Source of the DNA: Halomontanus rarus
GTDB taxonomy: Archaea > Halobacteriota > Halobacteria > Halobacteriales > Natrialbaceae
NCBI RefSeq assembly: GCF_017357405.1
Contig: NZ_CP071597.1
Span: 806,001 to 870,000, forward strand
Reading direction: 5' to 3'
Length of the DNA: 64,000 nucleotides
The notes below the pieces were generated by a model that searched no databases, had not been told where the DNA came from, and was given only the letters and a program-made list of their open reading frames with translations. Below, piece by piece: positions 22,165-38,600 of the stretch (positions are counted from its first letter, which is position 1; each line of letters opens with the position of its first letter). Made by a program: the position numbers and the translations under genes.

Positions 22165-22425
22165 CTACTCGTCGATCTCGAGTTCACTCACATCAAGTTC
22201 ACCCTCGAGATACGTCTTCCCAGTTTCTGTGAGCTGATAGAGTCCAGTTTCGACTGCGGTCAACAACCCAGCCTCAGAAAGTACTCTACAACGCTTGCTC
22301 ACGTACTGGCGATCGTACTCGATGTTTGCTGCGAGAACCCGTGGGGAGACCAAGATCGCATGCTCGTCGAAGAAAAGCATGATCTCGTAATCAACAGGTG
22401 CCATCCAGGGAACCCGCTCTACCAT
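22165..22425 (-). CDS. Winged-helix regulator (PhiH1-repressor-like), cassette 1
   Basis: An 86-aa protein with a winged-helix pattern: an N-terminal helix (YEIMLFFDEHAILVSPRVLA), a recognition helix (YDRQYVSKRCRVLSEAGLL) and a wing (YQLTETGKTYLEGEL). It resembles the phage PhiH1 repressor group of haloarchaeal HTH proteins. The start may be ATG 22425 or 22404. It is divergent from the four-gene operon beginning at 22660 and probably represses that operon and itself from the shared ~235-base region. Confidence 0.75.
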   Translation of the reverse strand: MVERVPWMAPVDYEIMLFFDEHAILVSPRVLAANIEYDRQYVSKRCRVLSEAGLLTAVETGLYQLTETGKTYLEGELDVSELEIDE

Positions 22426-22659
22426 CTATTCACAATATCCCGCTAGCAGAACGGAAAAATCAGTACTATCTACAGGAGGGTAGACTATTTTCATTGGTAG
22501 AATTAGACCACGTTCGTAGTCAAGACTTATGTCAAAGGAGTTCATTGTCACATCTACGGAAGTTAAACGTGACTCTCTCGATTGCAGAGTTGCAGAATAG
22601 CGGACCGGTGTTAGCGGCACCAGTCCGCGAGCAGCTCCCGTACACGCACTACGGAAGCC

Positions 22660-23073
22660 ATGTCAGATGACGATTCGCGGGGTTATGAAAGCCCCGACCG
22701 ACCACACGCATCGACCAACGACGATCAATCCCACGCCACCGAAGCCCGCGTCCGCCTCGAGATCATCGACCAACAGGCACAGGCCCTGCTCGAGAACATA
22801 CCTAAAGACAGTGACGCCATCCGCCATTGCCGCGAGATTCGGGCGGAAGTCGACCGGGTCCGACTCTATTTCCTGGGCCCGGAAGCGGTGCTCGAGGGAC
22901 TCCCGCTCGAAGAAGACACGACTGAGTCCGATGGCAGTGACTCGAACGTCCCCTTCCACATCGACTTAGACGAAGACGTTCCGATGGTCGCCCACGAAGG
23001 CAAACGGGTCACGACGTGCCTTGGCCCGGATCCAGACGCCTACGAACGCGAGCACGGTGATCGCGATGCGTAG
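22660..23073 (+). CDS. Cassette 1 gene 1: acidic 137-aa protein
   Basis: An acidic soluble protein with a predicted helical centre (ATEARVRLEIIDQQAQALLE, HCREIRAEVDRVRLYFLG) and a His/Asp-rich tail. There is no recognised family. It has no similarity to the gene in the same position in cassette 2. Its TAG stop overlaps the next start by 8 bases (ATGCGTAG), implying translational coupling. Confidence 0.6.
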   Translation: MSDDDSRGYESPDRPHASTNDDQSHATEARVRLEIIDQQAQALLENIPKDSDAIRHCREIRAEVDRVRLYFLGPEAVLEGLPLEEDTTESDGSDSNVPFHIDLDEDVPMVAHEGKRVTTCLGPDPDAYEREHGDRDA

Positions 23074-23212
23074 TCCGATGGCCCGCTTGCAGGATGGGTC
23101 GTTTCTCGAATCCACCCACCAATACCCGCCACTCGAGAACCGCCCATCCAACCCCTCCCGTCCGAACCCGTCCGATTCCAGCCGAGATACATCCGCGAGG
23201 GGGGTCCGATGA
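23066..23212 (+). CDS. Cassette 1 gene 2: 48-aa linker ORF
   Basis: This 48-codon frame overlaps gene 1 by 8 bases and gene 3 by 4 bases (ATGA). It is rich in Ser, Pro and Arg and has no domain. The exact overlap pattern is mirrored by the 36-aa gene in cassette 2, which supports translation, but the two peptides are not alike. It may act mainly as a coupling ORF. Confidence 0.4.
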   Translation: MRSPMARLQDGSFLESTHQYPPLENRPSNPSRPNPSDSSRDTSARGVR

Positions 23213-23592
23213 CCGGCGGGTTCGACGTCCGGTGGACGCCCGAGTGTGGCTCCCCGCGCGCACTCCTTTTCGAACCGGACGAAACGGACTGGATCCGCAC
23301 GGAGTTCGAGTGGACGGGCGAGGAGTGGCGCGAACTCGGGTGCGAGCGCGTGACCGAGATCGCGTGCTTCGGGAGCGACGGCGAGTACGTCGCGCCGACT
23401 CCTCGAGTGCGGGCCGCGAGCAATGGAGGTGCAGCCGATGGCGAGACCGAGACTGGTGCTCGCGACGAGAGTGCCCCTCGAGACACCGATAGCGAGAGAG
23501 GGAAAACCGGGCGCGAATCCCCCGACGAGAGTGATCACCGACACAGACACCGACAGGACCCCACACCCCGCGGAGGTGACGGCGATGTCTAA
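23209..23592 (+). CDS. Cassette 1 gene 3: conserved 127-aa protein
   Basis: The first ~65 residues (FDVRWTPECGSPRALLFEPD, TEFEWTGEEWRELGCERV, ACFGSDGEY) are very similar to cassette 2 gene 3 (37309-37551). The C-terminal ~60 residues are a low-complexity His/Arg/Asp tail that cassette 2 lacks. The compact Trp-rich beta pattern suggests a small fold. No family is known. It overlaps gene 4 by 8 bases. Confidence 0.65.
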   Translation: MTGGFDVRWTPECGSPRALLFEPDETDWIRTEFEWTGEEWRELGCERVTEIACFGSDGEYVAPTPRVRAASNGGAADGETETGARDESAPRDTDSERGKTGRESPDESDHRHRHRQDPTPRGGDGDV

Positions 23593-24607
23593 CGCCGCGG
23601 ACCGAACGCACGACCTCGAGTCCCTCGCCAGAGAACTCGCGGCCATCCGCGACCGAAACGAACGTTTGGCCGTCCGCGTCGAGGACCTCGAGGACGACTT
23701 GCACCGAGCCACCGACCGGGTCGACACGCTCGAGGACGAGACCGACGTGCTCCGAGACGAAACCGAGACGCTCCGGTCCGAAAACGATCACCTCCGAGAC
23801 CGGCTCGAGGACCTCGAGACCGAGACCACCAGTACGAGCGCGGCGGTCGAGGCCGCCCACAGACGCTCGGGTGCGAACAAACAGCGACTCGAGGAACTCC
23901 AATCGAGAGAACTCGAGAAGGGGGCGCACCTGCTCGAGACCAACGTCGACCGCCACGAGATCGACGTCGACGGCGGCCGACTCGAGAAGATCCGTACGGG
24001 CGACGAGTGCTACTATCGCCTGCCCGACGCCGACGATCCACTCGATCGATCCGACGCGACCCTCGCCCACGCCGACCTCCTCCCGATCCAGCAACTCGCG
24101 CGGATGGACGAGGACATGCTCCGCTCGACGACCAATGCGTTACCCTCGAGACTCGCCGCGAAACTCTGGAAGGCGAGAACCGATCCGTCCGTGGGGGACA
24201 ACCCGTGGCAGTCGGGCTGCAAGAACGTCCGCGAGTACGTCAAAGCGAGCGATCTGAAACACTGGATCCGCAGACGGGAACCCGGGACCAGCGACGCCTA
24301 CGCGAAGAAACTCGTCTCGAGGACGATCGACGCCCTGCTGGATCTCTCCAAGAACCGCCTCGCCGTCCGAAGAAAGCGAGAGCGAAAGAACGGCCTCGAG
24401 TACACCGAACGCCGCGTCCTCCTCACCGCGGACGCGGAGATCCCCGGCGAGACAAGGGGAGCAGCGGACGCTGACGCGGACGACTCGAGCGGAGATCACG
24501 CCGGGACGGAGCTCGCTGGGACGGAGACTCTCGAGGCAGAGACCCCTGGCACGGAAACCGCCGACACACCACTGCCGAAGACACCTGACGTCCACGGAGA
24601 GGACTGA
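23585..24607 (+). CDS. Cassette 1 gene 4: coiled-coil DNA-binding-like protein
   Basis: ATG at 23585 is fixed by the 8-base overlap also seen in cassette 2. Residues ~10-105 are a long coiled coil (ELAAIRDRNERLAVRVEDLE type heptads). Residues ~105-280 form a conserved domain with ADLLPIQQLARMDEDMLRST, ALPSRLAAKLWKAR and NPWQSGCKNVREYVKASDLK, ending in a very basic VRRKRERKNG helix. This suggests a winged-helix or nucleic-acid-binding core. An acidic Glu/Thr tail follows. The family is not named here. It is a paralogue of 37544-38395. Confidence 0.7.
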   Translation: MSNAADRTHDLESLARELAAIRDRNERLAVRVEDLEDDLHRATDRVDTLEDETDVLRDETETLRSENDHLRDRLEDLETETTSTSAAVEAAHRRSGANKQRLEELQSRELEKGAHLLETNVDRHEIDVDGGRLEKIRTGDECYYRLPDADDPLDRSDATLAHADLLPIQQLARMDEDMLRSTTNALPSRLAAKLWKARTDPSVGDNPWQSGCKNVREYVKASDLKHWIRRREPGTSDAYAKKLVSRTIDALLDLSKNRLAVRRKRERKNGLEYTERRVLLTADAEIPGETRGAADADADDSSGDHAGTELAGTETLEAETPGTETADTPLPKTPDVHGED

Positions 24608-24689
24608 CCACGGGCCACGAATCCACCCTCGAGAGAGCCCAACCTCTCACAGGACCACCACAGTTCCCACGCCACCGCCGGTTCACACG

Positions 24690-24800
24690 GGTTCGGTACC
24701 GGTGGGTCCGTCCCTCGAGCGGTCCTCGACGGTAGTACTGAGAGACTCCGACGACCGATGTGTCCGAAGACGACGGTTGTCCACGGGAGCAAGAGTCTGT
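24690..24800. repeat. Conserved 3' flank of cassette, copy 1
   Basis: A segment with TCCCTCGAGCGGTC, then a GACGGT block, then TGTCCGAAGACGACGG and TGTCCACGG recurs downstream of cassette 2 (38500-38600, partly) and alone at 34976-35075. It does not code. It could be a transcript 3' structure or the end of a mobile unit. Confidence 0.55.
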
Positions 24801-24891
24801 GAACAACGACTGCTGACGTACCTATCTCGAATGAACGACTGTGAGCGCAGTCTGCGTAAGTGTTATTGCTACACAAATGCAACACAGATCT

Positions 24892-25185
24892 ATGTCCGAG
24901 GCAGACACACCACCCGATAAAACGACCGTCAATATCCGGATTACGGAGACGTTTCTCGCGGATGTCGATGGGACGTGGGAAGAACTCGGGTATAATAGTC
25001 GGAGTGAGTTCATCAGGGATGTCCTCCGCGATGCCGTGAAACATCCCGAGTTCAACCGAGCAGATCTCAAAGCGATGCTCGCCGGTGAAGTCGATATTCA
25101 AAACGGGCGAACGTACACCAGCGACGAAGTGAAATCCGAGTACGGACTCGGAAGCGAGCAATCGGACCGTCGGAACGATGAGTGA
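24892..25185 (+). CDS. RHH antitoxin of RelE pair
   Basis: A 97-aa protein whose N-terminal half is a ribbon-helix-helix: KTTVNIRITETFLADVDGTW (strand and helix) and NSRSEFIRDVLRDAVK (second helix). The acidic tail would bind and block the toxin. The start at 24892 is chosen because the RHH strand follows a short acidic leader. It overlaps the toxin by 8 bases. It is expected to autorepress its operon. Confidence 0.8.
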   Translation: MSEADTPPDKTTVNIRITETFLADVDGTWEELGYNSRSEFIRDVLRDAVKHPEFNRADLKAMLAGEVDIQNGRTYTSDEVKSEYGLGSEQSDRRNDE

Positions 25186-25462
25186 AGACTGGGACTGGGA
25201 ATTCACGGACAGCGCCAACCGTCGATTCGACGCACTCGACGAATACGCTCGAGAACGTATCAGTTCGAAACTCGACGACATCGTCACTGATCAGTGGCGC
25301 GAGCCAGGTGACTATCTCGAACCGCTCGCTGGTGTACCCCATCAAAAACTTCGCATTGGACCGTTTCGCCTCGGCTGTCGCGCCGATCACGAACAGATGG
25401 TACTTCGGGTCCTGACCATCAAGAAACGTGGTGGCGACGCGTACCGAAGCGATGACGATTGA
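25178..25462 (+). CDS. RelE/ParE-family toxin
   Basis: A 94-aa protein with the compact RelE-type fold pattern: WEFTDSANRRFDALDEYARE helix, YLEPLAGVPHQKLRIGPFRL central strands, and MVLRVLTIKKRGGDAYR C-terminal strand and tail. Members cleave ribosome-bound mRNA or inhibit gyrase; the RelE branch is more likely. It is coupled with the RHH antitoxin. A decayed relative lies at 41621-41700. Confidence 0.8.
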   Translation: MSEDWDWEFTDSANRRFDALDEYARERISSKLDDIVTDQWREPGDYLEPLAGVPHQKLRIGPFRLGCRADHEQMVLRVLTIKKRGGDAYRSDDD

Positions 25463-25481
25463 CGCTATTCACTACTGTTCG

Positions 25482-25519
25482 TTGACATTCTCCCGCCCTG
25501 AAGGGCGGGAGGATGTCAA
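25482..25519. repeat. IS605-type hairpin (family A), best preserved
   Basis: Eighteen-base arms with one mismatch (TTGACATTCTCCCGCCCT and its partner) close on a GA dinucleotide. It starts 20 bases after the relE stop, so it could terminate that operon, but sequence and tail match the other family A hairpins and suggest an IS200/IS605 end or a PATE-like derivative. Confidence 0.7.
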
Positions 25520-25556
25520 TTGCCTGTATCCGTGACTCGTCCCTTGCTGTCCCCCG

Positions 25557-25955
25557 CTAGTCGGCAAACTCCCTCTCGGTTGAGCGACGTGTTTCGTCTC
25601 CCACACTCGAGTCGTCATCCTGTATTCCATCGTCGAACAGTTGCTCGAGTTCCGCCTCGAATTCGGCGTCTGTGAGGGTGCCCTCGAGAGACTGTTCGCG
25701 TTGCTCGACAGCAGAGGTGTCGTCAGGCACGGATTCGGTGTGTTCGTTCCGCTCTGACTCTGCTGTCGACCAGCCGGCAGCCAGCTCGTAGACGATGTAC
25801 ACGGCGAGTACGGCAAATCCGACGAGCACGGCGTACGAAAGCCACCGACTCACGAGTCGAAACACCTGGCCAGCGAGCAGAAGTGCGAGGAACGAACCGC
25901 CGACGAGGAGCGCGAGTTTGACCGCGACCGGGTTGGGACCTGAGGAGGTGCTCAT
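25557..25955 (-). CDS. 2-TM protein with SHOCT-like C-terminus
   Basis: A 132-aa protein. Two TM segments (residues ~12-30 and ~38-58) are followed by an acidic linker and a short C-terminal motif, EGTLTDAEFEAELEQLFDD, which resembles the SHOCT oligomerisation motif of bacterial and archaeal membrane proteins. A broken copy lies at 14402-14665. The function is unknown. It converges with the RelE operon. Confidence 0.7.
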   Translation of the reverse strand: MSTSSGPNPVAVKLALLVGGSFLALLLAGQVFRLVSRWLSYAVLVGFAVLAVYIVYELAAGWSTAESERNEHTESVPDDTSAVEQREQSLEGTLTDAEFEAELEQLFDDGIQDDDSSVGDETRRSTEREFAD

Positions 25956-26174
25956 AGGAACCGGTTGGATATCGTACCTAAAAAACCCCTGCTACAAAAC
26001 AGACGACCTTCGGTTGCACGATCTGTGGTTACAGAGTTAATCGAGACCGTCGAATCTCACATGGCAGATAATCGAATGACTGGTGTCCAGTCGTCTCGGT
26101 TACATTCCAAGACGTGGTGCGTGCTGGGACGTCGTCAGGCGCGGGAAATGGCACGGAGAGAGCAGAGATTCGGA

Positions 26175-26492
26175 TCACTCGTGTTCGTCTTGTGTCGTAG
26201 ACTCGAGTTGTAATCGCTCGAAGTACGCGTATCGCCATTGATAGTACCCCACAACTAGCAGGAGACACACGAGAAGCGCGGCCGTGAGTACGATCCCGAA
26301 CAGAGTCACGACCACCGGTTCTGTGAGAGCGGCAACCGGATCGGTAGCGACGTGGTCAAGGGCCTGTTGTTCAGCCGAGGAGATCCCCGACACGACGATG
26401 TGATACCCGACTGCGGCGGTTGCAAGAATGAGGAGAGACGTCGCCATACCAACGAAGATCCGAAGGCGCTGCCCGTTCGGTTCGTTACGCAT
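26175..26492 (-). CDS. 2-TM membrane protein, 105 aa
   Basis: Two hydrophobic segments (residues ~13-33 and ~60-85) separated by a ~25-residue loop, with a short charged C-terminus (QLESTTQDEHE). No family is recognised. It faces the same direction as the SHOCT-like gene, 219 bases upstream of it. Stretch 25956-26174 shows no gene. Confidence 0.6.
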   Translation of the reverse strand: MRNEPNGQRLRIFVGMATSLLILATAAVGYHIVVSGISSAEQQALDHVATDPVAALTEPVVVTLFGIVLTAALLVCLLLVVGYYQWRYAYFERLQLESTTQDEHE

Positions 26493-26662
26493 TAAGAGCT
26501 ACTTCGAACGTACCCATCACGTACTTTCGCATATACTCGCACCGGGAGACCGTCGTTCGAGGTCGGAGACGGAGGCTTCCAATGTCATGTTCGTATTCGA
26601 GTTCCCACACCAGTTGTGAACCCACTCACTGCGACTGTGCCGCTATCTCGTGACCTTTGGGT

Positions 26663-26692
26663 TGACATCCTCCCGCGCCTGAAGACGCGGGA
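26663..26692. repeat. IS605-type hairpin at TnpB remnant end
   Basis: TTGACATCC precedes arms TCCCGCG/CGCGGGA around CCTGAAGA. It sits just beyond the C-terminal end of the TnpB fragment, where an IS200/IS605 right-end hairpin belongs. Confidence 0.65.
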
Positions 26693-26813
26693 ATCCCGAC
26701 CGCGGTTGGGATATTACGGTCTACGACAATACCTGTTCTCGCGGTGCAAAGCAGCCGCTCTCGGAATCGAACAGGAACGTCGATGGCTGTGCCAACCAGC
26801 CGTTACTCCTATC

Positions 26814-27360
26814 TCACCCAGCACAGGCGAGACTTGGAGATACTTTCTGTCGAATGTTCTCAGCCTCGGTCACATCACCATTCGCAACCACTCCACACTC
26901 ATCACACATGTACAACCCGCGCTCTACGCGATTCGCCTTCCGCTCGCGCCCGCAGTACGTGCATGATTTTGACGTCTCTCGTTCCGATACACGTTCCACA
27001 GAGATGCCCTCGGCCTCAGCCTTGTACTCCAGTACGTTCCTGAATCGGTCGAACGCCCACGAGTGCAGGTCGAGGTTCCCGTGTTTGCCCCAATCCTTCA
27101 CCTCACCATCCTCATCTTCGCGGATTCCACCACGGTCTCCGATGGCGATGGTGCCAACGCTGTCTTCGATACAGCGGTCAACGATGTGCGTGGACAGGAC
27201 GTGGAAGTAGTGGGTTCGACGATTGGACTTCTTCGCGTTCAACCGAGTGGCCTGCTCCGAGGACGAGTCGTCACAGCGAGCGAGACGCTTGCTGAAGTAG
27301 TAGTCGTCCTGCTTCAAGCAGTTCAACGGATACAACTCGGCGTATCCATCCTCATAAGTG
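26814..27360 (-). pseudogene. TnpB (IS1341-type) C-terminal fragment
   Basis: The frame holds GTIAIGDRGGIRED (RuvC-II region), FDRFRNVLEYKAEAEGISVE, the zinc finger CTYCGRERKANRVERGLYMCDECG and NGDVTEAENIRQ (RuvC-III Asp). The N-terminal half with the first RuvC Asp and the DNA-recognition part is missing, and the reading frame breaks after IRQKVSPS. It is therefore a dead RNA-guided nuclease relative of the IS605/IS1341 group. The region out to 26663 carries degenerate C-terminal and right-end sequence. Confidence 0.85.
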
Positions 27361-27431
27361 CAAGAGTTGCACCGCTTAACTGGTCGATAAGGAAGTGTCG
27401 GCGGGTAGATCCCGTATTTGGAGTTGGGGAT

Positions 27432-27575
27432 ATGCCAGAGAGAAATAGCAGACAAGAATATTGTCCACACTGTGATGAAGACCGAGAGATTCGAACAACA
27501 GTCCCGTGGCAGGCGGATTTCTGTCGGCAGTGTGGCGAAGAAGTCCACTTCGAGTTCGTCACGGGGGACGACTGA
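27432..27575 (+). CDS. 47-aa WQAD-type zinc ribbon protein
   Basis: ATG at 27432 gives MPERNSRQEY, then CPHCDEDREI, then TVPWQADFCRQCGEEVHFEF. Two CxxC pairs flank a TVPWQAD core, predicting one zinc ribbon. The same module is present twice in tandem in the protein at 31496-31768. It overlaps no conserved part of the TnpB remnant. It may be a nucleic-acid-binding miniprotein. Confidence 0.55.
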   Translation: MPERNSRQEYCPHCDEDREIRTTVPWQADFCRQCGEEVHFEFVTGDD

Positions 27576-28074
27576 CGGAGAGAGACACTAGGTAGATCAG
27601 TTCTACCTTGGTCAACCGAATCAGCGCGAACATAGTCACGACCTCGAGGAGTAGCCGCGCCACTGTACGATCACGTTCTCAAAGCTGACCTCCCCTCTCG
27701 GCCCATATGATGTCCATTGGGCATTACTAATTAATGCCGATTACATTATTATCAATAGAATTTAGAGTTCAAACGGCGGGAGTGTTGGCTACCGACCCAC
27801 CATCCGTAGACAACGTGATCATCACTCCTCCCGCCCGCTATATTCCATTACTGAGAAGGAGGGGCTCCCTCTCTCAGTGTGCAGGAGGCTTTCTCTAGCG
27901 TTGGTTCTCCCACGACGTCGAAGACTTTGAGCCCAGGATAAGTCATGGTTGCCAGGAGATGTGTTTGAAAGCAATCGAAAGTTCCTGTACACAGTGTCAG
28001 TGCGTGAGCGCGATTTTCGCAAAAATCTCGGCAGCGTCCCAAATCTACTTTGGCGCGCGCCATGACACGAACGC
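27576..28074. mobile_element. IS605-type end remnant in non-coding DNA
   Basis: No gene is supported. Bases ~27770-27860 (GGCGGGAGTG, TACCGACCCACC, GTGATCATCA, TCCCGCC, ATTCCAT) match 30745-30840 nearly step for step, including a GC-rich inverted arm pair around the block. This is probably an IS1341-type element end left behind. Confidence 0.45.
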
Positions 28075-28431
28075 ATGGATCGCTACGAGACGCGCATCAA
28101 TGACGGCACGGTTTATCTCGAGACCGACGACGACGAGCTCGAGATCGGCGACCTCGAGACGATCATCGAGGTCATCGGCGGCGAGACCTACACGGTATCG
28201 TACGATGAGCGCCAGCGCACCCAGTCGTGGCTCGAGACGGACGACGACGGGGCGATGACGGTCGATGTCCGAGAGACCATCGAGGAACTCCCACACCAAC
28301 GGGAGGTCGTCGCGAAACTGCAAGCCGCCGATCACTCGCAGGCGAAGTACGGGCTCCCGGAACGGACCGTCGAGTTTGCGAACGAAATCGTCGCCATCCT
28401 CGACCAACAGGGCGCCTCACAGGCCGACTGA
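28075..28431 (+). CDS. Hypothetical acidic 118-aa protein
   Basis: Strong haloarchaeal codon bias and an even acidic composition (MDRYETRINDGTVYLETDDD, YTVSYDERQRTQSWLETDDD). The N-terminal half is probably beta-rich and the C-terminal half helical (EVVAKLQAADHSQAKYG). There is no TM segment or known motif. No operon partner. Unrecognised. Confidence 0.65.
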   Translation: MDRYETRINDGTVYLETDDDELEIGDLETIIEVIGGETYTVSYDERQRTQSWLETDDDGAMTVDVRETIEELPHQREVVAKLQAADHSQAKYGLPERTVEFANEIVAILDQQGASQAD

Positions 28432-28798
28432 CGATCGATTGCCGTTCTCTTTCGTGCACCCGATTTAGCATCGGCTACGGGCTCGTGACACACCCGTGGA
28501 CCGGCTAGCAAGCGCGGAGCTGCAGCCACAGTCGTCTTCCGCTCGGCCGGTCCATTCGGTCATGTGGGAACGGTATCGCCGCTCGAGACTGGTCAACAAT
28601 CCCGACCTCAAGGGTGGGTGTCTGTTTCGACCACCGATGAAATCCGTGCCACCTACGATGACGGTGAATCCGATTCGATGCTGAATACGCTCAAAACCGA
28701 CCGGGTTCAGGAACAGGTGGCCCCGCATATATCTGCCCCAGTAACGTAGTACCGAATCGCGACGATATCAAGATCCCACTGACCCCGCTAAGGATAGT

Positions 28799-29173
28799 AT
28801 GACCGAACCGAACACAGGCCGAGACGAACGAGAGCGTACTGGAGACCGCCAGCGAGAGCATCACCGTGAACAAGAGCGAGACCATGTTGACGAGGCCGAT
28901 CCACCACGTGAGGCGGTGGATGTCGCCCAACGCGAGGCGGACGACGATTCGGACGCACCTCGTGAGTGCCACCGTCGCAACTGCACCGAGCGCGCGTCGT
29001 TTGTCGTCCTCGAACGATACCAAGAAGAAACAGGGCACGGGGCAGTTGAAGCAGAGGTTGCCCTGTGTCGAGAGCACACCGCCGAAGAAAGTCCGACGAA
29101 CCTCGATGGCGCCTATATGGACTACGTGTTTCGCGTCGAGCCGCTCCCGGAGACCGTCCCGGCCTCACCATAA
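28799..29173 (+). CDS. Hypothetical 124-aa Cys/His protein
   Basis: Residues 1-60 are very hydrophilic and rich in Arg, Glu and Asp, likely disordered. Residues ~60-118 form a compact domain, CHRRNCTERASFVVLERYQE, EVALCREHTAEESPTN, AYMDYVFRVEPLP. The CxxxxC and CxxH residues could bind zinc. The plus-strand frame is preferred over the opposite hydrophobic frames because of codon bias and this pattern. Gap 28432-28798 contains only a degenerate TCAAG-loop hairpin near 28601-28618. Confidence 0.6.
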   Translation: MTEPNTGRDERERTGDRQREHHREQERDHVDEADPPREAVDVAQREADDDSDAPRECHRRNCTERASFVVLERYQEETGHGAVEAEVALCREHTAEESPTNLDGAYMDYVFRVEPLPETVPASP

Positions 29174-29342
29174 CAGATGGCATACTTCAGGCGAGCACCT
29201 GATGCCAGTATTCGTCGAGACGCTCGCCTCTGTGGCGAGTCGATTCGCGGTGGCGAGGCCGTGAGCGCTAGAACTGGATCGAAAGCAACGAACGGTGGCC
29301 CTGCACGTCCAACGGGCACCGAGGGAGCGGCCGTCAAACCTC

Positions 29343-30697: not shown

Positions 30698-30744
30698 CAG
30701 TAGTAATTCGTGAAACTATCCCAACACTTTATTATAAATACTTG

Positions 30745-31415: not shown

Positions 31416-31490
31416 CCCGTCGTAAACGACGGGATTCTCTCCTCGCAGAAAGATAGATGAGGCGAGAAAACCCACGACTGAAGTCGTGGG
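31416..31490. repeat. Two IS605-type hairpins (CCCGTCG and CCCACGACT arms)
   Basis: 31416-31433 has arms CCCGTCG/CGACGGG with a TAAA loop. 31471-31490 has perfect 9-base arms CCCACGACT/AGTCGTGGG with GA at the turn, followed by GAATGTCAC, the family A tail. The second hairpin abuts the stop of the zinc-ribbon gene and could also end its transcript. Confidence 0.6.
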
Positions 31491-31495
31491 GAATG

Positions 31496-31768: not shown

Positions 31769-31935
31769 ATCTCCCGGTTAGAAATATTTAGTCCATACTC
31801 ATAATACTTTCCTAGAATATAATTTGGGAACAATTATAATATCTACTATTCATAAATCCCAAAGATGATCGGTGTGAAGACTACGGCTATTGAGTTCACG
31901 GGTCATTTTATCGCGTCTAACCCGCCGTCTAGCCC

Positions 31936-32030
31936 GTGTGGCCACTTGGACACGTCGCGGTCGCCTATTGGTGCGACAGTCTCTCGACTCGAGTCCGCTT
32001 CGAAGGTAGAGACACGCTCGAGAGGAACCA
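31936..32030 (+). pseudogene. 5' remnant of a DUF457-type gene, copy 2
   Basis: From a GTG the frame encodes WPLGHVAVAYWCDSLSTRVRF-like sequence, then leaves homology at the same position as copy 1 (18753), continuing with a shared GAGACACGCTCGAGAGGA. The intact relative starts at 41080. The shared junction means one truncated version was copied to both places. Confidence 0.7.
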
Positions 32031-32070
32031 GAAGGACGATGATTGGTTATCTAGTTGGACAGACGCAAAA

Positions 32071-32380
32071 CCTCGCCCTTTAGGGCGGGGATACGCGCCG
32101 TAAGTTTGATTGAGCTTCCTTTCGTTGGTCTGTTTGTGCGCGGAAAACTGGCGGTTGACTCGGTGTTCGCCACGGTTCGTAGCCGAAACCAAAGGTAAGC
32201 CGGCCGCGCTAGCCGACGCAAAATAATCAGGTAACTCGCTACCCCTCGCGGGGAACGAGTAACGGTAGCGTGGCACTGCCAGTGGCTCGTCGGACCACGA
32301 ACCTTAGATTCCCAACCTTCAGGAGTGACCTGCCCGGCCAACACCGGGTGGGAAGCCCCGTCCTTTAGGGCGGGGAGGAT
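32071..32380. mobile_element. IS605-type end sequence with two hairpins
   Basis: Hairpins at 32071-32090 (CCTCGCCCT, TT, AGGGCGGGG) and 32356-32375 (CCCCGTCCT, TT, AGGGCGGGG, then AGGATGTCAC) bracket ~270 bases without a gene. This spacing and orientation could be a complete small non-autonomous (PATE-like) unit. Gap 31769-32565 otherwise holds the DUF457 remnant and repeat R2. Confidence 0.5.
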
Positions 32381-32389
32381 GTCACCTCC

Positions 32390-32530
32390 CGATTCAGCGA
32401 CTCGCCCGAATAAACGAGAACATCCTTGAGCCCACCAGAGATGTCCGTTGCGACGGTGTCAACAACCCGACCTCAAGGGTCGGGGCGTCCGCCTCGATAG
32501 TCTGTGAGACGGCTCGAGTCACTCTGCCGA
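32390..32530. repeat. Dispersed repeat R2, copy 2 (first third)
   Basis: Matches 18935-19075, including the AGATGTCCGTTGCGACG block and the TCAAG-loop hairpin at 32466-32484, and ends at GGCTCGAGTCA. Confidence 0.55.
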
Positions 32531-32565
32531 CAGTGGCGCGACGAACGGGTGGGCGAGCGTGAGCC

Positions 32566-32781
32566 CTACTCGTCGGCGAGTGCGTCGTAGATATCACGAT
32601 GTTCGTCCCGTTTGTGTTTCGCCAAGCGACGAAGAATCGACTCACGAGCCTCCGCTATGAGTTCGTCCGGTGGCTCTTCGCCGTGTTCCTCCACGTACTG
32701 CTCTCGAGCGCGTTCGAGCATCGTGTCGAGCAGGTTCCCGCGACTGCCGTCGGAGGAATGAGAGTCGTTTTCAGCCGCCAT
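32566..32781 (-). CDS. Hypothetical 71-aa helical protein
   Basis: Starts at ATG 32781, overlapping the stop of the upstream gene by 11 bases. It is an acidic, mostly helical peptide (NLLDTMLERAREQYVEEHGE, LIAEARESILRRLAKHKRDE). No known domain. Translational coupling to 32771-33001 suggests joint function. Confidence 0.55.
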   Translation of the reverse strand: MAAENDSHSSDGSRGNLLDTMLERAREQYVEEHGEEPPDELIAEARESILRRLAKHKRDEHRDIYDALADE

Positions 32782-33001
32782 TTGTGGATTGGTCTTTGTC
32801 GTGGTCAGTGTTAACGGTTCCGTCAGAACCCGTGGTAAGTCCCCACTTCCGTCTCGAGAACCCCTGTTTGGAGTCTGGAAGGTATTCGTTGAGGTCGATA
32901 TCGAGTGATTCCGCAAGCGCGACCGTCGCGACCACGACGAGGAGGGCTAGCGGATCGGTATCGTCGTCGGTCTTGAGCGCTGTGGTTTGAGTAGCGTTAA
33001 C
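32771..33001 (-). CDS. 5'-truncated hypothetical gene
   Basis: The supported part reads TALKTDDDTDPLALLVVVAT, VALAESLDIDLNEYLPDSKQ and an Asp/Gly tail. Upstream of ~33001 the frame runs antisense through a decayed TnpB, so its real N-terminus was probably removed by that insertion. No start codon is convincing. It is coupled to the 71-aa gene. Confidence 0.4.
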   Translation of the reverse strand, partial: VNATQTTALKTDDDTDPLALLVVVATVALAESLDIDLNEYLPDSKQGFSRRKWGLTTGSDGTVNTDHDKDQSTNGG

Positions 33002-33200
33002 CCTGATGGTGATGAGTTCGAGTGCCTGAAGCGGAGCAAAGAACTCTACGCGGATCATACTGCGGCGCGGAATGTGCCGTCTCGTCCAGAACTGGCTCAC
33101 GTCTGGGTCTGGACGGACCACCGGTCAACTGGCCCTGAAGTCAGAAACGGTGAACGCGAACGGCGATTTCAACGCCTCCGCATAGTTGCGGCACAGCGGG
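32998..33200 (+). pseudogene. Decayed TnpB C-terminal end
   Basis: Plus-strand GDEFECLKRSKELYADHTAA matches the TnpB zinc-finger/RuvC-III block (normally ECLKCGKELHADxNAA), with zinc Cys lost. After a frameshift, LVQNWLTSGSGRTTGQLALK and VNANGDFNAS follow. It is the downstream end of an IS1341-type element. Confidence 0.7.
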
Positions 33201-33500
33201 TGTTCACTGACAAGCCTTGGAATAATACGAAAATTGATGATTTCTGCGATGGCGTCTCGAACCACTTGACCCGAGGCGGTTGACCGGGAGACGTGGAGGA
33301 CGACATCGCGTACCGCGGTCGTCGTCACCGACTATGTGATCGCCGGCGCCGAACCCATACCCGTCACGTCGGTGCGCTCGAGAAAACGGGTCACTCAGAG
33401 GTCAAGCCGCTACGAAGTTGGTGGGTTCCGTCGTCGTTTCTAAAGACTTCACCAGTCGTTTCGCCACATTGGAACGAATGCGTCGAGGCATTCTCGAGAG

Positions 33501-33806
33501 TCAAAACGGCAGGAGGGACTGGAGACGGTCGGCGAGAGTCGTCTCATTCGCACGGAGCCAGCGCATCTCGTATGTTTGCCCCTTCCCGGCGCTGATGAAG
33601 GGCACGGTCGTTGCCGGTTCATCGTGAAAGGCTTCAACCGCGTACACGAGGTTCGTACGTGCCGCTTTCTCGAAATCCCCGATGCCGCGACAGTCCGTTT
33701 CGGGGTCGGTAGCGACCCACAACGGTTCCTCCGACCTCCCGGGAAGGAGGTCAACCGGTTCACGGGTCACGTCAGCCCGTTCAAAGACGGTTTCCGGATC
33801 CATGTA
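33501..33806 (-). CDS. Hypothetical 101-aa protein
   Basis: A frame with good haloarchaeal bias from ATG 33806 (MDPETVFERADVTREPVDLL, LWVATDPETDCRGIGDFEKA, TYEMRWLRANETTLAD). No family is recognised. It may be the surviving part of a longer gene, because the sequence after the stop continues in another frame with basic helical character. It lies just downstream of the acetamidase gene, on the same strand. Confidence 0.45.
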   Translation of the reverse strand, partial: YMDPETVFERADVTREPVDLLPGRSEEPLWVATDPETDCRGIGDFEKAARTNLVYAVEAFHDEPATTVPFISAGKGQTYEMRWLRANETTLADRLQSLLPF

Positions 33807-33887
33807 CATAGATAGCACGGGTAGACAATAGTCTGTTCTCCCTGATGTCCACGAATCGAGTGACTCAACTGGATCGCCCGTCCCGTC

Positions 33888-34832
33888 TCACTTGTCTGGA
33901 AACAGCTGTCTGGCCAGATACGCCGACACCACCCAGTTCGGCTCGTCAACGACCTCGTTGATCTTGAGATCGGCAGCGACTGAACAAAGGACGTAGGCCT
34001 CCTCGCGGGTGAGGTCGTAGTGTTCGTGAAGGTGGTCGATCATCCCCAGCATAGCGATTTTCGTCGCCTCCATGAGGTCGTTGTCGATCCCCGTCGTCGC
34101 GTACATCGGTTCGTCCTGGCCCGACGGCGTGAACGGGCCCGTCGTCTCGAATTGGGGGTATTCGATATCGAGGTCCGTGCGCACATCGAACCGAACCGTG
34201 ATCGTCGTCGGCGTCTCGATGGCGCTGACGCACACCTCGCCGTCGCCTTGGGCGGCGTGACCATCGCCGATACTGAAGAGTGCATCCTCGACTGCGATAG
34301 GAAGGTAGACGGTGGATCCTGCCGTCAAGTGCTTGATGTCCATGTTCCCGCCGACGCGTCGGGGTGGCCCCGTAGAGTGGACACCCTTCTGCGTGGGTGC
34401 AACTCCCACCACACCGGGGAAGGGAGCAAGTGGTACCTCGATCCCCGCCTCGAAATATCCAACGTCGTCGTCGAGGTCCCAGTGGTACAGGAACGGATCG
34501 GGAAATTCTTCGGGAAGTAACCCCGCACCGCGCTTACCCGACCGAATCAATGTGTATCCCCAGTCGTGATGCTCGATGTCGAGGATCTCGATTTGGAGCA
34601 CGTCTCCCGGCTCGGCACCTTCGATGGCGACTGGACCAGTGAGGTGGTGGCCGACGAACTCGATTTCGGGAAGTTCCTCAGCGTCGGTCTCGGGGGTGAT
34701 TCGGGGACCGCTATCGTTGAGACACTCGAAGCGAACGACGTCACCTGGTTCGACGTGAAGCGCTGGGGACAACCTCTTGTCCCACGATGTATGAAGTGCC
34801 TCCTCGTGACTGAGCGCGTGATCAATATTCAT
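33888..34832 (-). CDS. Acetamidase/formamidase family protein
   Basis: A 314-aa member of the FmdA/AmdA family, which hydrolyses acetamide or formamide to ammonia and the acid. Family features include HVEPGDVVRFECLNDSGPRI near residue 26, GPVAIEGAEPGDVLQIEILD near 67, FPGVVGVAP near 140, GGNMDIKHL near 162 and GDGHAAQGDGEV near 191 with its metal-site residues. It is cytosolic and supplies nitrogen. Length is normal for the family. Start ATG 34832 is consistent with the family N-terminus. Confidence 0.9.
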   Translation of the reverse strand: MNIDHALSHEEALHTSWDKRLSPALHVEPGDVVRFECLNDSGPRITPETDAEELPEIEFVGHHLTGPVAIEGAEPGDVLQIEILDIEHHDWGYTLIRSGKRGAGLLPEEFPDPFLYHWDLDDDVGYFEAGIEVPLAPFPGVVGVAPTQKGVHSTGPPRRVGGNMDIKHLTAGSTVYLPIAVEDALFSIGDGHAAQGDGEVCVSAIETPTTITVRFDVRTDLDIEYPQFETTGPFTPSGQDEPMYATTGIDNDLMEATKIAMLGMIDHLHEHYDLTREEAYVLCSVAADLKINEVVDEPNWVVSAYLARQLFPDK

Positions 34833-34943
34833 GAACAGGTAGGGAATTCTCAGCAGTTATCTTACGCTTTTTGTCGATAGGGATGTCCTTGTGGTGCTCA
34901 TCGTGAAAATCTCTCTCCGTCATCTGCAAGTACGTCGTCAACT

Positions 34944-34966
34944 GCCTCGGGGTCAAGCCCCGAGGC
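34944..34966. repeat. TCAAG-loop hairpin (family B)
   Basis: GCCTCGGGG and CCCCGAGGC arms enclose TCAAG. The same hairpin occurs in inverse orientation at 51413-51434. Gap 34833-35486 holds only this hairpin and the repeats listed next. Confidence 0.6.
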
Positions 34967-34975
34967 TTGTCAGCC

Positions 34976-35075
34976 GGTAGGTCCGTTCCTCGAGCGGTCG
35001 TCAGCGGTCTCTCGTATCGACCGTTCCACCGACTGTATCCGAAGACGACGGCTGTCCACGGAAGAACTGAGAGGG
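34976..35075. repeat. Orphan copy of the cassette 3' flank
   Basis: GGTCCGTTCCTCGAGCGGTC, then TGTATCCGAAGACGACGG and TGTCCACGG, match 24698-24790. No cassette genes precede it, so it looks like the end left by a lost cassette. Confidence 0.5.
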
Positions 35076-35094
35076 ACGGACCTGAGTGAGCTGT

Positions 35095-35112
35095 CCACGG
35101 CTGAAGTCGTGG
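35095..35112. repeat. IS605-type hairpin (family A)
   Basis: CCACGGCT and AGTCGTGG arms (one G-T pair) with GA at the turn, sharing the CTGAAG core. Confidence 0.5.
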
Positions 35113-35135
35113 CGATTCTGATTGAACAGGTGAAC

Positions 35136-35400
35136 CCAAGATGTCCGTTGCGACGCCGTGGTACAGTTCGAGTCAGCGGTTGCTATCACCAATGTTAATC
35201 ACGCAACAAGTATATCCGTATATCATCTGGACGGGGGTACGGGAGAGGAGGAACCGAATCCGAAACCGCACCACAGTGCGTCCATGTTACCTCTCCCATT
35301 CGTTTACTGACGATGATGGCGAACCGAGGTCTACATCGTCACCGGTCTCTTCAGGAAACTCTTCGGCCCGACAAACACGCACGCCAGTACGAGTAGTTGA
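35136..35400. repeat. Dispersed repeat R2, copy 3 (last two thirds)
   Basis: Matches 18995-19310 over ~260 bases, including AGATGTCCGTTGCGACGCC, CACCAATGTTAATCACGCAA, ACTGACGATGATGGCGAAC and GAGTAGTTGAACGTTGCTAT, but lacks the TCAAG-loop hairpin. Confidence 0.6.
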
Positions 35401-35486
35401 ACGTTGCTATACAAAAGAAAAGAAAGAGACGCCTCACTGTTTATGAGTCACGGGCGAATAGTACGATGTACGAGGCCCTGTGAGTC

Positions 35487-35777
35487 ATGGTTGACGTCGA
35501 AGAAAACATCGAACTCCTCCGGAAGTCAGGTCGTTTCAGTTCCGAAGAAGAGTTTCTCGAGGAAGCGGTTCGGGCATTACTCGAAAAACGGCCCGAACTT
35601 CGCATCGAACTGGCCGTCGAACAGTACAAAACGGGCTCCGTGAGTCTCAACCGTGCCGCAGAGATCGCAGGCTACAGTCCAGAAGAGTTCAAGTCAATAC
35701 TCAGTGATCGGAACATTAGTCGGGATATCGGATTTCTCGAGGACGAGCAACGCGACGAGTATCTGGACGGGTTGTAG
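35487..35777 (+). CDS. UPF0175-family antitoxin
   Basis: A 96-aa protein with an N-terminal RHH-like part (RKSGRFSSEEEFLEEAVRAL) and the UPF0175 core helix-turn-helix ELAVEQYKTGSVSLNRAAEI then AGYSPEEFKSIL. UPF0175 proteins are paired with PIN/DUF3368 toxins, exactly as here (5-base gap). Expected to neutralise the PIN RNase and autoregulate. Confidence 0.85.
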   Translation: MVDVEENIELLRKSGRFSSEEEFLEEAVRALLEKRPELRIELAVEQYKTGSVSLNRAAEIAGYSPEEFKSILSDRNISRDIGFLEDEQRDEYLDGL

Positions 35778-35782
35778 TTCGA

Positions 35783-36310
35783 ATGGTTGTCGTCGATAAC
35801 AACGTGTTGAGTTCGCTGGCGAAGATCGATCGACTGGATCTGTTACGACGGATCTTCGATGATGTTGCAACAGTTCCATCAGTATTCGATGAGCTACACA
35901 GAGACGAGGTTGCCGGGTACGAGTTCGTCGACCGAATCGACGACATCAAGGGATATCGGGATGGATGGCTCCGCGTTCGGTCGGTCTCCGAGGCAGATCT
36001 CGAACTCGCGGACGAAATCGTCGATTCGTCGCTCTCGTTCACTGATGCGGAGTGTATCGCGATCGCTCAGCGTCGCGATGAACGACTGCTTACGGACGAC
36101 AGTCATGCGGGTGAAATGGCGTCACAACGCGGTGTCGAAGTCTGGGATCTCAAACTCTGTCTCGAGGCAGCAATCGTCACCGAATGTATCTGCTCTCGGT
36201 CCGAATTGGACTCGGTCATCGAAGCATTGCGAGAGAAAGACGGCTATCGGTTCTCCACGACTGATCGGCAGGATCTTCACGATCGGCTCGAATCAACAAC
36301 TCGCGACTAG
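35783..36310 (+). CDS. PIN-domain (DUF3368-like) toxin
   Basis: A 175-aa PIN-fold RNase. Acidic catalytic residues are seen in VVVDNNVLSSLAKI (N-terminal Asp), SVFDEL (Glu), LSFTDAECIAIA (Asp/Glu) and ERLLTDDSHAG (Asp pair). The length and position after UPF0175 fit the DUF3368 subgroup. It probably cleaves RNA when free of antitoxin. It immediately precedes cassette 2, tail to tail with the winged-helix gene. Confidence 0.85.
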   Translation: MVVVDNNVLSSLAKIDRLDLLRRIFDDVATVPSVFDELHRDEVAGYEFVDRIDDIKGYRDGWLRVRSVSEADLELADEIVDSSLSFTDAECIAIAQRRDERLLTDDSHAGEMASQRGVEVWDLKLCLEAAIVTECICSRSELDSVIEALREKDGYRFSTTDRQDLHDRLESTTRD

Positions 36311-36427
36311 CGTCTCTCCACAGCCTGAATCCGAAGCCGATGGTCAAACCGACCTCTGGGGTGACGCCGACAGAACTGACGATCGAACGACCAGAAACCA
36401 GCACTGGTGGTCGGATTCGAAGGCAGA

Positions 36428-36670
36428 TCAATCCTGCTCTCGAGGATCGTCGACCAGTTCGAACAGGCGAGTCCCTTCGTGGATACACTCGACGTGGCCA
36501 GCCGCTTCGAGGACCTCGAGTCGATTGTAAATTGTATTTCTCGAGTAACTAGTCCAGTCGACGAGTGCCCCCTTCGTTGCTCGGCCATGAAGTAGCATAT
36601 CGAGGATTTCTTCGTCAGCTGGCCGTAGATCGTCGGGTTCCATCGGTTTGCTGTGTTGTGCAGCCGCCAT
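36428..36670 (-). CDS. Winged-helix regulator, cassette 2
   Basis: Residues LRPADEEILDMLLHGRATKG, VDWTSYSRNTIYNRLEVLEA, GHVECIHEGTRLFELVDDPR form a winged helix of the MarR/ArsR-like haloarchaeal type. ATG 36670 is preferred; 36685 and 36643 are alternatives. It is divergent from the cassette 2 operon, as the unrelated winged-helix gene is in cassette 1. A truncated copy exists at 15627-15780. Confidence 0.75.
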   Translation of the reverse strand: MAAAQHSKPMEPDDLRPADEEILDMLLHGRATKGALVDWTSYSRNTIYNRLEVLEAAGHVECIHEGTRLFELVDDPREQD

Positions 36671-36845
36671 GTGCATATATCCCAACTGTACGCACTTAGA
36701 CTTGGCTTTTAGAACATCATAATTGCATGTGCATATTGCACAAGAGTTAAGAGTGTTCTACGGTAATTGATGAACAGCACGGGATGCCTTCAGAGAATCT
36801 GAGGCCGGTGTTTCAGGCACCGACCCTGTGCTGGAGCAACCAGCA

Positions 36846-37205
36846 ATGGTGACTACGACACACGCACACGAAACGATTTCGGACGAATCATCCAGCGAGA
36901 AGACCATCCTCGAGCGACCGAGATCCGCCTACGGATACCTCGGACGGGACGGCGACGGCTACCATCACCATCTCGACAGGGCAACGAACACAGTATACGT
37001 AACCGAGAGCGAGTACGAGCGGTTTCTCCTGGAGAACGCACTCACGTACTGGGTCCGTGTCTACAACGAGACGGACACCATCGTCGACCTCGAGTCCTCT
37101 GCAGATCTCGAGGCGTGGATCGATAACGTCGACTCAGACGTCGGTTGGGCAGCACAACCGGCTGATCTTCGAGTCCTCCTTACGCCGCGAGGTGACTCCA
37201 CATGA
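36846..37205 (+). CDS. Cassette 2 gene 1: 119-aa protein
   Basis: A soluble acidic protein with SAYGYLGRDGDGYHHHLDRA and VYVTESEYERFLLENALTYW. No family. It is not similar to cassette 1 gene 1, although it occupies the same position. It overlaps the next gene by ATGA. The region 36686-36845 holds AT-rich TATA-like sequence (36710-36760) for both divergent promoters. Confidence 0.6.
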   Translation: MVTTTHAHETISDESSSEKTILERPRSAYGYLGRDGDGYHHHLDRATNTVYVTESEYERFLLENALTYWVRVYNETDTIVDLESSADLEAWIDNVDSDVGWAAQPADLRVLLTPRGDST

Positions 37206-37312
37206 ATCCCGACGAGACCATAGTCACGCTCGAACTGGAACTCGAGCGGCCTGTAACGCCGGGTGATCTCGAGCGGGCGTACTGTGCACTCCTCGAGGAG
37301 GTGGACCGATGA
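37202..37312 (+). CDS. Cassette 2 gene 2: 36-aa peptide
   Basis: ATGA overlaps on both sides fix this 36-codon frame: MNPDETIVTLELELERPVTP then GDLERAYCALLEEVDR. A strand plus amphipathic helix pattern looks like a genuine small protein. Cassette 1 has a 48-codon frame in the same place. Confidence 0.5.
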   Translation: MNPDETIVTLELELERPVTPGDLERAYCALLEEVDR

Positions 37313-37551
37313 CTGACGAGGGTTTTGACGTCCGGTGGACGCCCGAGTATGGCTCTCCGCGAGCGGTCCTCTTCGAACCTCACGACGAGGACTGGAGACG
37401 CACGGAGTTCGAATGGACCGGTGACGGCTGGCGAGAAATTGGATGTGAGCGCGTGACCGGAGTCGCCTGTTTCGGGAGCGACAGTGAGTACAGCGCACCC
37501 GATGGTCTGCGACCGCATCCCGCGAGAGATGACGGTGAGGACGATGCGTGA
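37309..37551 (+). CDS. Cassette 2 gene 3: conserved 80-aa protein
   Basis: FDVRWTPEYGSPRAVLFEPH, TEFEWTGDGWREIGCERV and ACFGSDSEY align closely with the N-terminal half of cassette 1 gene 3. The low-complexity tail of that paralogue is absent, so the common ~65 residues are the functional core. It overlaps gene 4 by 8 bases, as in cassette 1. Confidence 0.65.
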   Translation: MTDEGFDVRWTPEYGSPRAVLFEPHDEDWRRTEFEWTGDGWREIGCERVTGVACFGSDSEYSAPDGLRPHPARDDGEDDA

Positions 37552-38395
37552 CGCACCCGCTCGAACGCGTGACGTTAGCCTCGAGTCACTCGCTGAAGAA
37601 CTCGAGACTCTTTATGAACAGAACGAGCGCCTCGTTGATCGGATCGACACGCTCGAGGACGAGATCGACACGCTTCGAACTGAAAACCACCAACTTCAGA
37701 ACCGTGTCGACGAACTCGAGTCTGAAATCACTCAGAACAGCGCAGCCGTTGATGCCGCTCACAAGCGGTCGGGTGCAAACAAGGAGCGACTCGAGGAACT
37801 TCAGGCCAGAGAACTCGAGAAAGGTGCTCATCTCCTCGAGACCAACGTCGACTCCCACGAGATCGACGTCGACGGCGACCACCTCGAGAAGATACAGAAA
37901 GATGACGACCGATTGTACTACCGTCTTCCAGACTCCGATGATCCACTGCAACGCGGGTCCGTCTCGCTCGCGCACGGGGACCTCCTCCCGATCCAGCAAC
38001 TCGCCAGAATGGACGACGAGATGCTTCGCTCGACCACGAACGCCCTTCCCTCGAGACTCGCGGCCAAACTCTGGAAGGCTCGCACAGATCCTACTACGGG
38101 AGACGACCCGTGGCAGTCGGGCTGCAAGAACGTCCGCGAATACGTCAAGGCCTCAGACCTGAAACACTGGATCCGCCGACAAGAACACGGTATCAACGAC
38201 ACGTACGCGAAGAAGCTCGTCTCAAGGACGATCGACGCGCTCCTCGACCTGACCAAGAATCGGCTGGCCATCCGTAGAAAACGCGAACGGAAGAACGGCC
38301 TCGAGTACACCGAACGCCGCATCCTCCTCACAGCAGATACGGAGGTCCCCCGGAGAAACAGGATCCTCCGACACACCGCCACCGGAGACAGCTGA
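37544..38395 (+). CDS. Cassette 2 gene 4: coiled-coil DNA-binding-like protein
   Basis: A 283-aa paralogue of 23585-24607. A coiled coil (residues ~10-100; ETLYEQNERLVDRIDTLEDE) is followed by the conserved core (GDLLPIQQLARMDDEMLRST, DPWQSGCKNVREYVKASDLK, LAIRRKRERKNGLEYTERRI). The tail is short because an internal deletion changes the frame: the nucleotides that encode PDVHGED and stop in cassette 1 are still present at ~38393-38415 but are non-coding here. Core identity is very high, so the function is probably retained. Confidence 0.7.
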   Translation: MRDAPARTRDVSLESLAEELETLYEQNERLVDRIDTLEDEIDTLRTENHQLQNRVDELESEITQNSAAVDAAHKRSGANKERLEELQARELEKGAHLLETNVDSHEIDVDGDHLEKIQKDDDRLYYRLPDSDDPLQRGSVSLAHGDLLPIQQLARMDDEMLRSTTNALPSRLAAKLWKARTDPTTGDDPWQSGCKNVREYVKASDLKHWIRRQEHGINDTYAKKLVSRTIDALLDLTKNRLAIRRKRERKNGLEYTERRILLTADTEVPRRNRILRHTATGDS

Positions 38396-38499
38396 CGTCC
38401 ACGGAGAGGACTGACCACGGAGCCAACTCGTTCCTCGAGAGAGGCGACACTTTCATTCCAACACCACTTCACACCTCACCATCGACCGTTCACACGGGT

Positions 38500-38600
38500 C
38501 TGGTACCTGCAGGTCAGACTCTCGAGCGGTCGTCGACGGTTGAGAACGGGATCCACCTCGAGTGGAACGTTCAAAGACGACTGCTGTCCAGGGAGATCAC
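38500..38600. repeat. Cassette 3' flank, copy 2
   Basis: TTCACACGGGTCTGGTACC, CTCGAGCGGTCGTCGACGGT and later ACGACTGCTGTCCAGGG align with 24680-24800, more weakly at the far end. No gene is present between 38396 and 38764. Confidence 0.45.

Follow-up and report, generated by a model that had tools for sequence, protein, structure and literature searches.

A haloarchaeal coiled-coil protein and its adjacent 212-bp element, a possible head of integron-like toxin–antitoxin arrays

Gene content of the cassettes

The window analyzed here, a 64,000-nucleotide stretch of the Halomontanus rarus genome (contig NZ_CP071597.1, positions 806,001 to 870,000), contains two four-gene cassettes whose last gene, gene 4, encodes a predicted coiled-coil protein and is followed by a noncoding element of about 212 bp, which we call the site (Table 1). 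As proposed in the initial annotation of this sequence, the cassettes follow the same plan, a divergent winged-helix regulator and then genes 1 to 4, with overlaps of 4 bases between genes 2 and 3 and of 8 bases between genes 3 and 4 in both. The coordinates of all genes agree with this plan, as do the paralogy of gene 4 (75% identity between cassettes over residues 26–274) and of gene 3 (68% identity) and the lack of visible likeness between the two genes 1 and between the two regulators. The two regulators are both short and belong to the phrog_2440 kind of winged-helix protein, and genes 1–4 match no Pfam, PHROGs, or NCBIfam family beyond coiled-coil matches. Gene 2 of cassette 2 is supported as a real gene, since another copy of the cassette (c3, at C1:567k) has the same sequence joined to gene 1 as a fusion; the 48-codon gene 2 of cassette 1 has no counterpart recognizable by eye in the other five copies of this genome and may be spurious. 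A leader hairpin, CGGTG-N3..6-CACC, lies before gene 1 in both cassettes (window positions 22580–22680 and 36800–36850), and 18 of 74 loci have such a hairpin after the start of the regulator, as compared with 0.5 of 74 in shuffles.

The H. rarus genome (5.17 Mb, two contigs) encodes six copies of gene 4 and one broken remnant. A type A front is found in copies c1, c4, c5, and c6 and a type B front in c2 and c3, while c4 and c6 are without gene 3. Across 89 nonredundant gene 4 loci, the front is type A in 35, type B in 24, and neither in 31, with one locus carrying both; a regulator-type winged helix–turn–helix protein occurs in 77 of these loci and gene 3 in 31 (all approximate counts of hidden Markov model matches on either strand within 4 kb). 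The modularity suggested from the two cassettes is therefore real, given that differing fronts accompany gene 4 among haloarchaea. The initial annotation had also placed genes 3 and 4 together in a conserved core, which holds for gene 4, whereas gene 3 is optional. Since the fronts vary and gene 3 is present in only 31 loci, the conserved core is gene 4 with its site. At four loci (L025, L026, L089, and L099), a short TnpB-like gene with RuvC motifs and a TNB zinc finger occupies the front upstream of gene 4, outside any evident insertion sequence (IS) element; the one such protein scanned matches PF07282 (E=6e-12). At another place (L075/L160, G075:C1), two gene 4 cassettes are separated by about 10 kb and both have a partial site behind them, an arrangement suggestive of the duplication of a larger unit.

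The AlphaFold2 model of gene 4 (mean pLDDT 86.5, pTM 0.51) consists of a helix at residues 13–92 followed by a winged-helix-like order of elements at residues 168–263, and from this order of predicted elements we read the latter region as a probable winged helix. The initial annotation had named a match of gene 4 to a known replication or partition protein, with no variable partner, as evidence against its modular reading; among such proteins gene 4 gave no match above coiled-coil noise. Within the class, gene 4 matches occur in 137 of 292 genomes at E<=0.001, many of them near 1e-4 and possibly reflecting the coiled coil only, and in 71 at E<=1e-20; contigs of 84,980 species contain 133 stretches encoding relatives, of which the best 80 were kept. 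The suggested linkage to mobile DNA is seen in 46 of 72,556 plasmid records and in four viral contigs, one identical to a plasmid record, and no relative was found in 50,697 phage records. The 49-kb circular Natrinema element CP031301 (L028, L238; also L144) carries gene 4 and the site together with a terminase small subunit, an annotated ParA, and an integrase.

A compact form of the core is found in genome G129, in which six dispersed units of about 1.34 kb, 87–92% identical and with sharp ends and differing, unrelated flanks, contain a short leader, a small reading frame (recognized by eye), gene 4, the site, and nothing else. Gene 4 is intact in all six copies, and a dN/dS of 0.03–0.06 in all 15 pairs indicates strong purifying selection; dS is 0.32–0.78, and the proteins are nearly identical (L148–L153). 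The noncoding ends of these units are more similar to one another than the synonymous positions are.

The site, its arrays, and their cargo

The site has a near-constant length of 212 bp. It is bounded by inverted arms and contains two repeats of 4 bases spaced by 10 bp. Its start overlaps the final codons of gene 4 or falls just past the stop, and its end is about 190 bp after the stop; the 5' arm begins at −33, −27, −14, −7, or +3 relative to the stop, and the element is therefore not a coding artifact. In an alignment of downstream regions anchored on the arms, which replaced a global alignment of 992 columns, both arms lie 209–222 bp apart (outer ends) in 65 of 88 nonredundant loci and in none of 264 shuffles. 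The spacing is 210–213 bp in 60 of those 65, and some of the remaining loci have longer versions of the site. The two 4-base repeats are identical in 77 of 85 sites, as compared with a mean of 44 and a maximum of 53 over 2000 shuffles, counts that come from related rather than independent sequences. The repeats change together, as those departing from CGGT are still identical in 20 of 23 sites, and the strongest like-letter covariation of the element is that between them. A model of the site, trained on a set that includes the sites of cassettes 1 and 2, finds the element in all six H. rarus cassettes, as one half-site in the window, and as a weak piece at C1:925.8k. For 10 of 10 plasmid loci that were not part of the training set, the same model places a site directly behind gene 4. 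In a search of the family, it matches 69 of 81 genomes at E<=0.01, although the weakest matches are probably noise. The right end of the element is sharp, with 521 of the 771 locus-pair alignments that reach its last 60 bp stopping 0–10 bp past the 3' arm. No arm repeat was seen at the left end of the cassettes, matches outside the site being mostly other sites of arrays. The GC content is 0.49–0.72 among the matches listed, with no AT-rich stretch by eye.

Arrays of sites in the same orientation occur in many Natrialbaceae genomes, and among the matches listed all 42 neighboring site pairs within 15 kb agree in orientation. When arrays that hold both intact and broken copies of gene 4 were compared, the intact copy came first in 12 of 14 (G305, G301, G295, G254, G046, G160, G045, G164, G105, two in G272, and L138). 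The broken units downstream of this head retain the tail of gene 4 with its site, and many such sites match nearly the whole model. One gain or loss event is captured by a comparison of two species, one having a site–cassette–site arrangement (L198) and the other a single hybrid site (L197). The first quarter of this hybrid agrees with the first parent, the middle is a mosaic, and the remainder agrees with the second parent. At L192 and L195, the same two blocks stand in opposite order. These comparisons show that gain, loss, and reordering happen at the repeats; the L197/L198 event is compatible with homologous recombination and would bear on site-specific excision or insertion. As a candidate empty site for c3, we considered the sister species G296, which is syntenic and without the cassette, but a neighboring HAD-like gene also differs and no exact ends could be read. 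No empty site was found for c5, as the cassette is present in both genomes compared, and the set searched held no second genome of the genus of G129.

Toxin–antitoxin (TA) pairs are abundant in the intervals between sites. Pfam matches among 89 inter-site open reading frames (ORFs) include PIN (8), DUF433 (7), nucleotidyltransferase (7), DUF5615 (5), and HepT (4) domains, as well as UPF0175 (3), Fic (3), PemK (2), and MazE (2); the corresponding control tallies cover the 25 commonest families and may hide single TA matches. With the cassette's own genes removed and homologous arrays counted once, 44 of 72 inter-site ORFs have a homolog between the sites of another array, as compared with 18 of 67 ORFs just after lone cassettes, 4 of 55 at 4.5–5.8 kb downstream, and 3 of 62 at 4.7–6.0 kb upstream. 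These values replace a first count (64/89, 22/72, 8/57, and 6/68) in which fragments of the cassette itself and arrays homologous to one another had been left in. Of 78 near-site ORFs, six (L070, L108, and L111) were dropped as belonging to the next cassette or its tail, while L088, L113, L118, and L142, which are the same places as arrays, were kept in the near and far sets and raise the control counts. The cleaning is conservative because the ORFs removed by the regulator model include helix–turn–helix proteins that may be antitoxins.

The window repeats this pattern in small, with a site and a candidate TA pair at cassette 1 and, farther along, a half-site, a second candidate TA pair, cassette 2, and its site (Table 1). 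The second pair adjoins cassette 2 and consists of a UPF0175 protein and a product that we read as PIN-like. Directly before the orphan half-site lies a GC-rich hairpin (GCCTCGGGG..CCCCGAGGC, window positions ~34900–34960), perhaps the end of an insertion element that cut the site. Elsewhere in the window, a sot0042 RNA (Rfam RF02656, 26671–26845, minus strand) overlaps the end of a TnpB-like gene (26814–27548, minus strand; PF07282 and PF01385), and the two are a relic of IS200/605 type.

Table 1. Features of the two cassettes and their surroundings, in window positions
Feature	Position	Strand	Match
Broken gene 4 remnant, two TGA stops	18770..18988	+	E=1.1e-15
Divergent winged-helix regulator, cassette 1, phrog_2440-like	22165..22425	-	E=2.1e-24
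Gene 1, cassette 1, front type A (shared with c4, c5, c6)	22660..23073	+	
Gene 2, cassette 1, 48 codons, doubtful	23066..23212	+	
Gene 3, cassette 1, small Trp-containing protein	23209..23592	+	
Gene 4, cassette 1, coiled coil and winged helix (predicted)	23585..24607	+	
Site of cassette 1, ~212 bp, starting within the end of gene 4	24574..24789	+	Site model, 126 bits, E=2.5e-37
RHH-like antitoxin candidate after site 1	24892..25185	+	RHH_1, E=0.0044, below cut-off
ParE/RelE-like toxin candidate	25178..25462	+	PF05016, E=7.1e-4, below cut-off
Orphan 3' half of site (model positions 120–223)	34960..35064	+	E=7e-13
UPF0175 antitoxin-type protein after orphan half-site	35487..35777	+	PF03683, E=7.6e-12
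PIN-like toxin candidate	35783..36310	+	No Pfam match; PADLOC PDC-S70, E=1.6e-12
Divergent winged-helix regulator, cassette 2	36428..36685	-	
Gene 1, cassette 2, front type B (shared with c3)	36828..37205	+	
Gene 2, cassette 2, 36 codons, fused to gene 1 in c3	37202..37312	+	
Gene 3, cassette 2	37309..37551	+	
Gene 4, cassette 2	37544..38395	+	
Site of cassette 2	38378..38596	+	Site model, 128 bits, E=8e-38

Proposed function and alternatives

We tentatively favor a reading in which the gene 4 protein and its cognate site head integron-like TA arrays, although we hold it at somewhat less than an even chance. The gene 4 product would be a coiled-coil, winged-helix DNA-binding protein that recognizes the 212-bp element by binding the paired outer arms and the inner repeats, which are one helical turn apart, and its coiled coil would bridge copies of the site. 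Crossovers between sites of the same orientation would then add or remove the intervening DNA, often a TA pair, and the divergent regulator and exchangeable front genes would control or assist gene 4. With gene 4, its site, and crossovers at such sites, the cassette would therefore be the head of the array. We infer the DNA binding, the bridging, and the part of gene 4 in the exchange from the features described above; cutting and joining may come from host homologous recombination. In a stronger formulation, the protein and site would form a haloarchaeal gene-capture system distinct from integrons, in which TA cassettes are collected, reordered, and lost through site-directed recombination, the protein serves as recombination factor, and the front genes act as regulators, and this we regard as distinctly unlikely.

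Several observations weigh against the favored reading. No catalytic domain is recognized in gene 4, and its fold has no match at E<=0.001. In 80 loci with flanks of up to 8 kb, single queries for an integrase and for ParA found no match of at least 120 amino acids. Polarity is broken in two arrays (G130:C127 and G143:C1), a gene 4 fragment (G272:C4:70444) lies on the opposite strand within an array contig, and the orphan half-site of the window is upstream of the intact cassette 2. One gain or loss event has been read in detail and its switch is mosaic; homologous recombination between repeats of about 290 bp would account for it. Unit boundaries are ambiguous, in that the reordered blocks may start in the gene 4 tail or in the site. 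As to the right ends, 167 of the 771 alignments stop before the end of the arm and 83 extend beyond it by more than 10 bp, and in old sequences an equally sharp end would be seen wherever a conserved site adjoins DNA that is not conserved. The TA signal is weaker after lone cassettes, and the six units of G129 are all lone, with no array in the 10 kb read.

The main rival is a plasmid-maintenance module, in which gene 4 and the site would serve plasmids and plasmid-like viruses in segregation, copy control, or incompatibility, and the chromosomal arrays would be passive relics of integrated stability regions (site and TA pair) shuffled by ordinary homologous recombination. The 46 plasmid records and the 49-kb plasmid or virus contig with its terminase small subunit speak for it, TA pairs are common stability genes of plasmids, and repeats spaced by 10 bp suit a centromere or iteron site. 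Orc1/Cdc6-like genes lie in 6 of the 80 loci, where about 2 are expected from their density in the H. rarus genome, a weak linkage. However, the ParA query found nothing in these loci, and the annotated ParA of the 49-kb element is far from gene 4. Chromosomal copies are many, including the six under purifying selection in the 2.66-Mb contig of G129, and sites that outlive gene 4 in one orientation are left unaccounted for. We consider this explanation possible but somewhat unlikely.

A replication initiator encoded by gene 4, with the site as an origin overlapping the end of its gene, would define a new haloarchaeal replicon type. The predicted winged helix, the direct repeats, and the occurrence in plasmids and viruses agree with this idea, but up to six intact copies per genome, the GC content of the site with no AT-rich stretch, and the lack of a match between gene 4 and known initiators make it quite improbable. 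We assign still less probability to a self-moving insertion element with gene 4 as an unrecognized transposase and the site as its right end, so that arrays arise by insertion beside older copies. The dispersed, sharp-ended units of G129 and the pile-up of alignment ends at the 3' arm are what such an element would produce. Against it, the cassette genes of the window contain no transposase domain, no terminal inverted repeat joins the two ends of the G129 units by eye, the six G129 copies are all intact at a dS of 0.32–0.78, and no clean empty site was found.

The initial annotation had likened the cassettes to modular defense, anti-defense, or plasmid-maintenance systems. The variable fronts and TA neighbors agree with a modular defense, anti-defense, or addiction module, but this we judge very improbable, as the eight cassette proteins scanned in PADLOC gave coiled-coil matches only, which leaves the cassette genes with no defense family beyond coiled coils, and sites persist where gene 4 is broken. 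Least probable of all is that the element acts as a structured or guide RNA with the gene 4 product as its binding protein: it overlaps the 3' end of a gene in the manner of TnpB RNAs (such as sot0042 of the window) and some single loci fold well (L144, z=−7.9; L026, z=−3.9), but the strongest like-letter covariation joins direct repeats, and neither alifold nor Rfam nor a comparison with shuffled folding revealed a strand-specific signal. The element looks like a protein–DNA site rather than an RNA because its folding is only weakly above shuffles and equal on both strands (mean z over 30 loci of −1.4 on the plus and −1.5 on the minus strand) and no Rfam family matches within it at gathering score.

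If the favored reading is true, cassette arrays arose more than once, the site and protein family is a marker for gene-exchange hot spots in haloarchaea, and gene 4 is a testable DNA-bridging protein. Even as plasmid maintenance, the system would be a widespread and unannotated protein–site pair on haloarchaeal megaplasmids.

Comparison with known systems

Integrons are the textbook system for collecting gene cassettes. Chromosomal, sedentary integrons and CALINs resemble the arrays described here in their repeated sites of one orientation, the cassettes between them, the frequency of TA cassettes, and the head gene at one end; the integron feature of gene cassettes between sites of one orientation is present in these arrays. 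They differ in that the site here is about 212 bp long with co-changing repeats, gene 4 tails are attached to sites, and gene 4 is not recognized as a tyrosine recombinase. The family PF00589, used to look for an integron integrase (a tyrosine recombinase), has 8 matches in the H. rarus genome, and the closest of them to a cassette, among all six, is still about 217 kb away. The outer core motifs of attC, RYYYAAC and GTTRRRY, were found in none of 100 sites on either strand (3 of 2000 shuffles). The layout and cargo are thus integron-like, yet two defining features of integrons, an integrase near the cassettes (looked for around those of H. rarus) and attC cores, were not found.

Archaeal integrons described in metagenome-assembled genomes establish cassette arrays in Archaea, defined there by IntI and/or clusters of attC, and the string “Halobacter” is absent from the main text of that paper (PMC9668308). 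Integrons and CALINs with TA-rich arrays have been reported from hypersaline metagenomes and halophile genomes with an attC-based tool, a study in which 47 archaeal genomes were searched and the array described is that of a bacterium, Halorhodospira halochloris (PMC7923331). Haloarchaea thus appear as a gap in a cassette-array literature that looks for IntI and attC, as far as can be judged from sources among which subscription papers and preprints are thinly covered.

Other systems share the combination of a DNA-binding protein and a repeat-rich site. Iteron replicons pair a winged-helix Rep with direct repeats; the winged helix and direct repeats beside the gene recur here, and the 10-bp spacing, the position of the site after the gene, and the lack of a demonstrated origin set the present system apart. 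Further partition systems with coiled-coil DNA-binding proteins are pSK1 Par and AspA–ParB. KfrA-type partition or plasmid-organizing systems, in the accounts available, likewise place a coiled-coil DNA-binding protein beside a repeat-rich plasmid site, binding being predicted in our case, and differ from gene 4 and its site, which have no ParA nearby, form site arrays with TA pairs, and occur in multiple chromosomal copies. In comparison with ParABS partition, no partition NTPase was found with gene 4 (one ParA query, 80 loci), and the repeat architecture would fit a centromere site.

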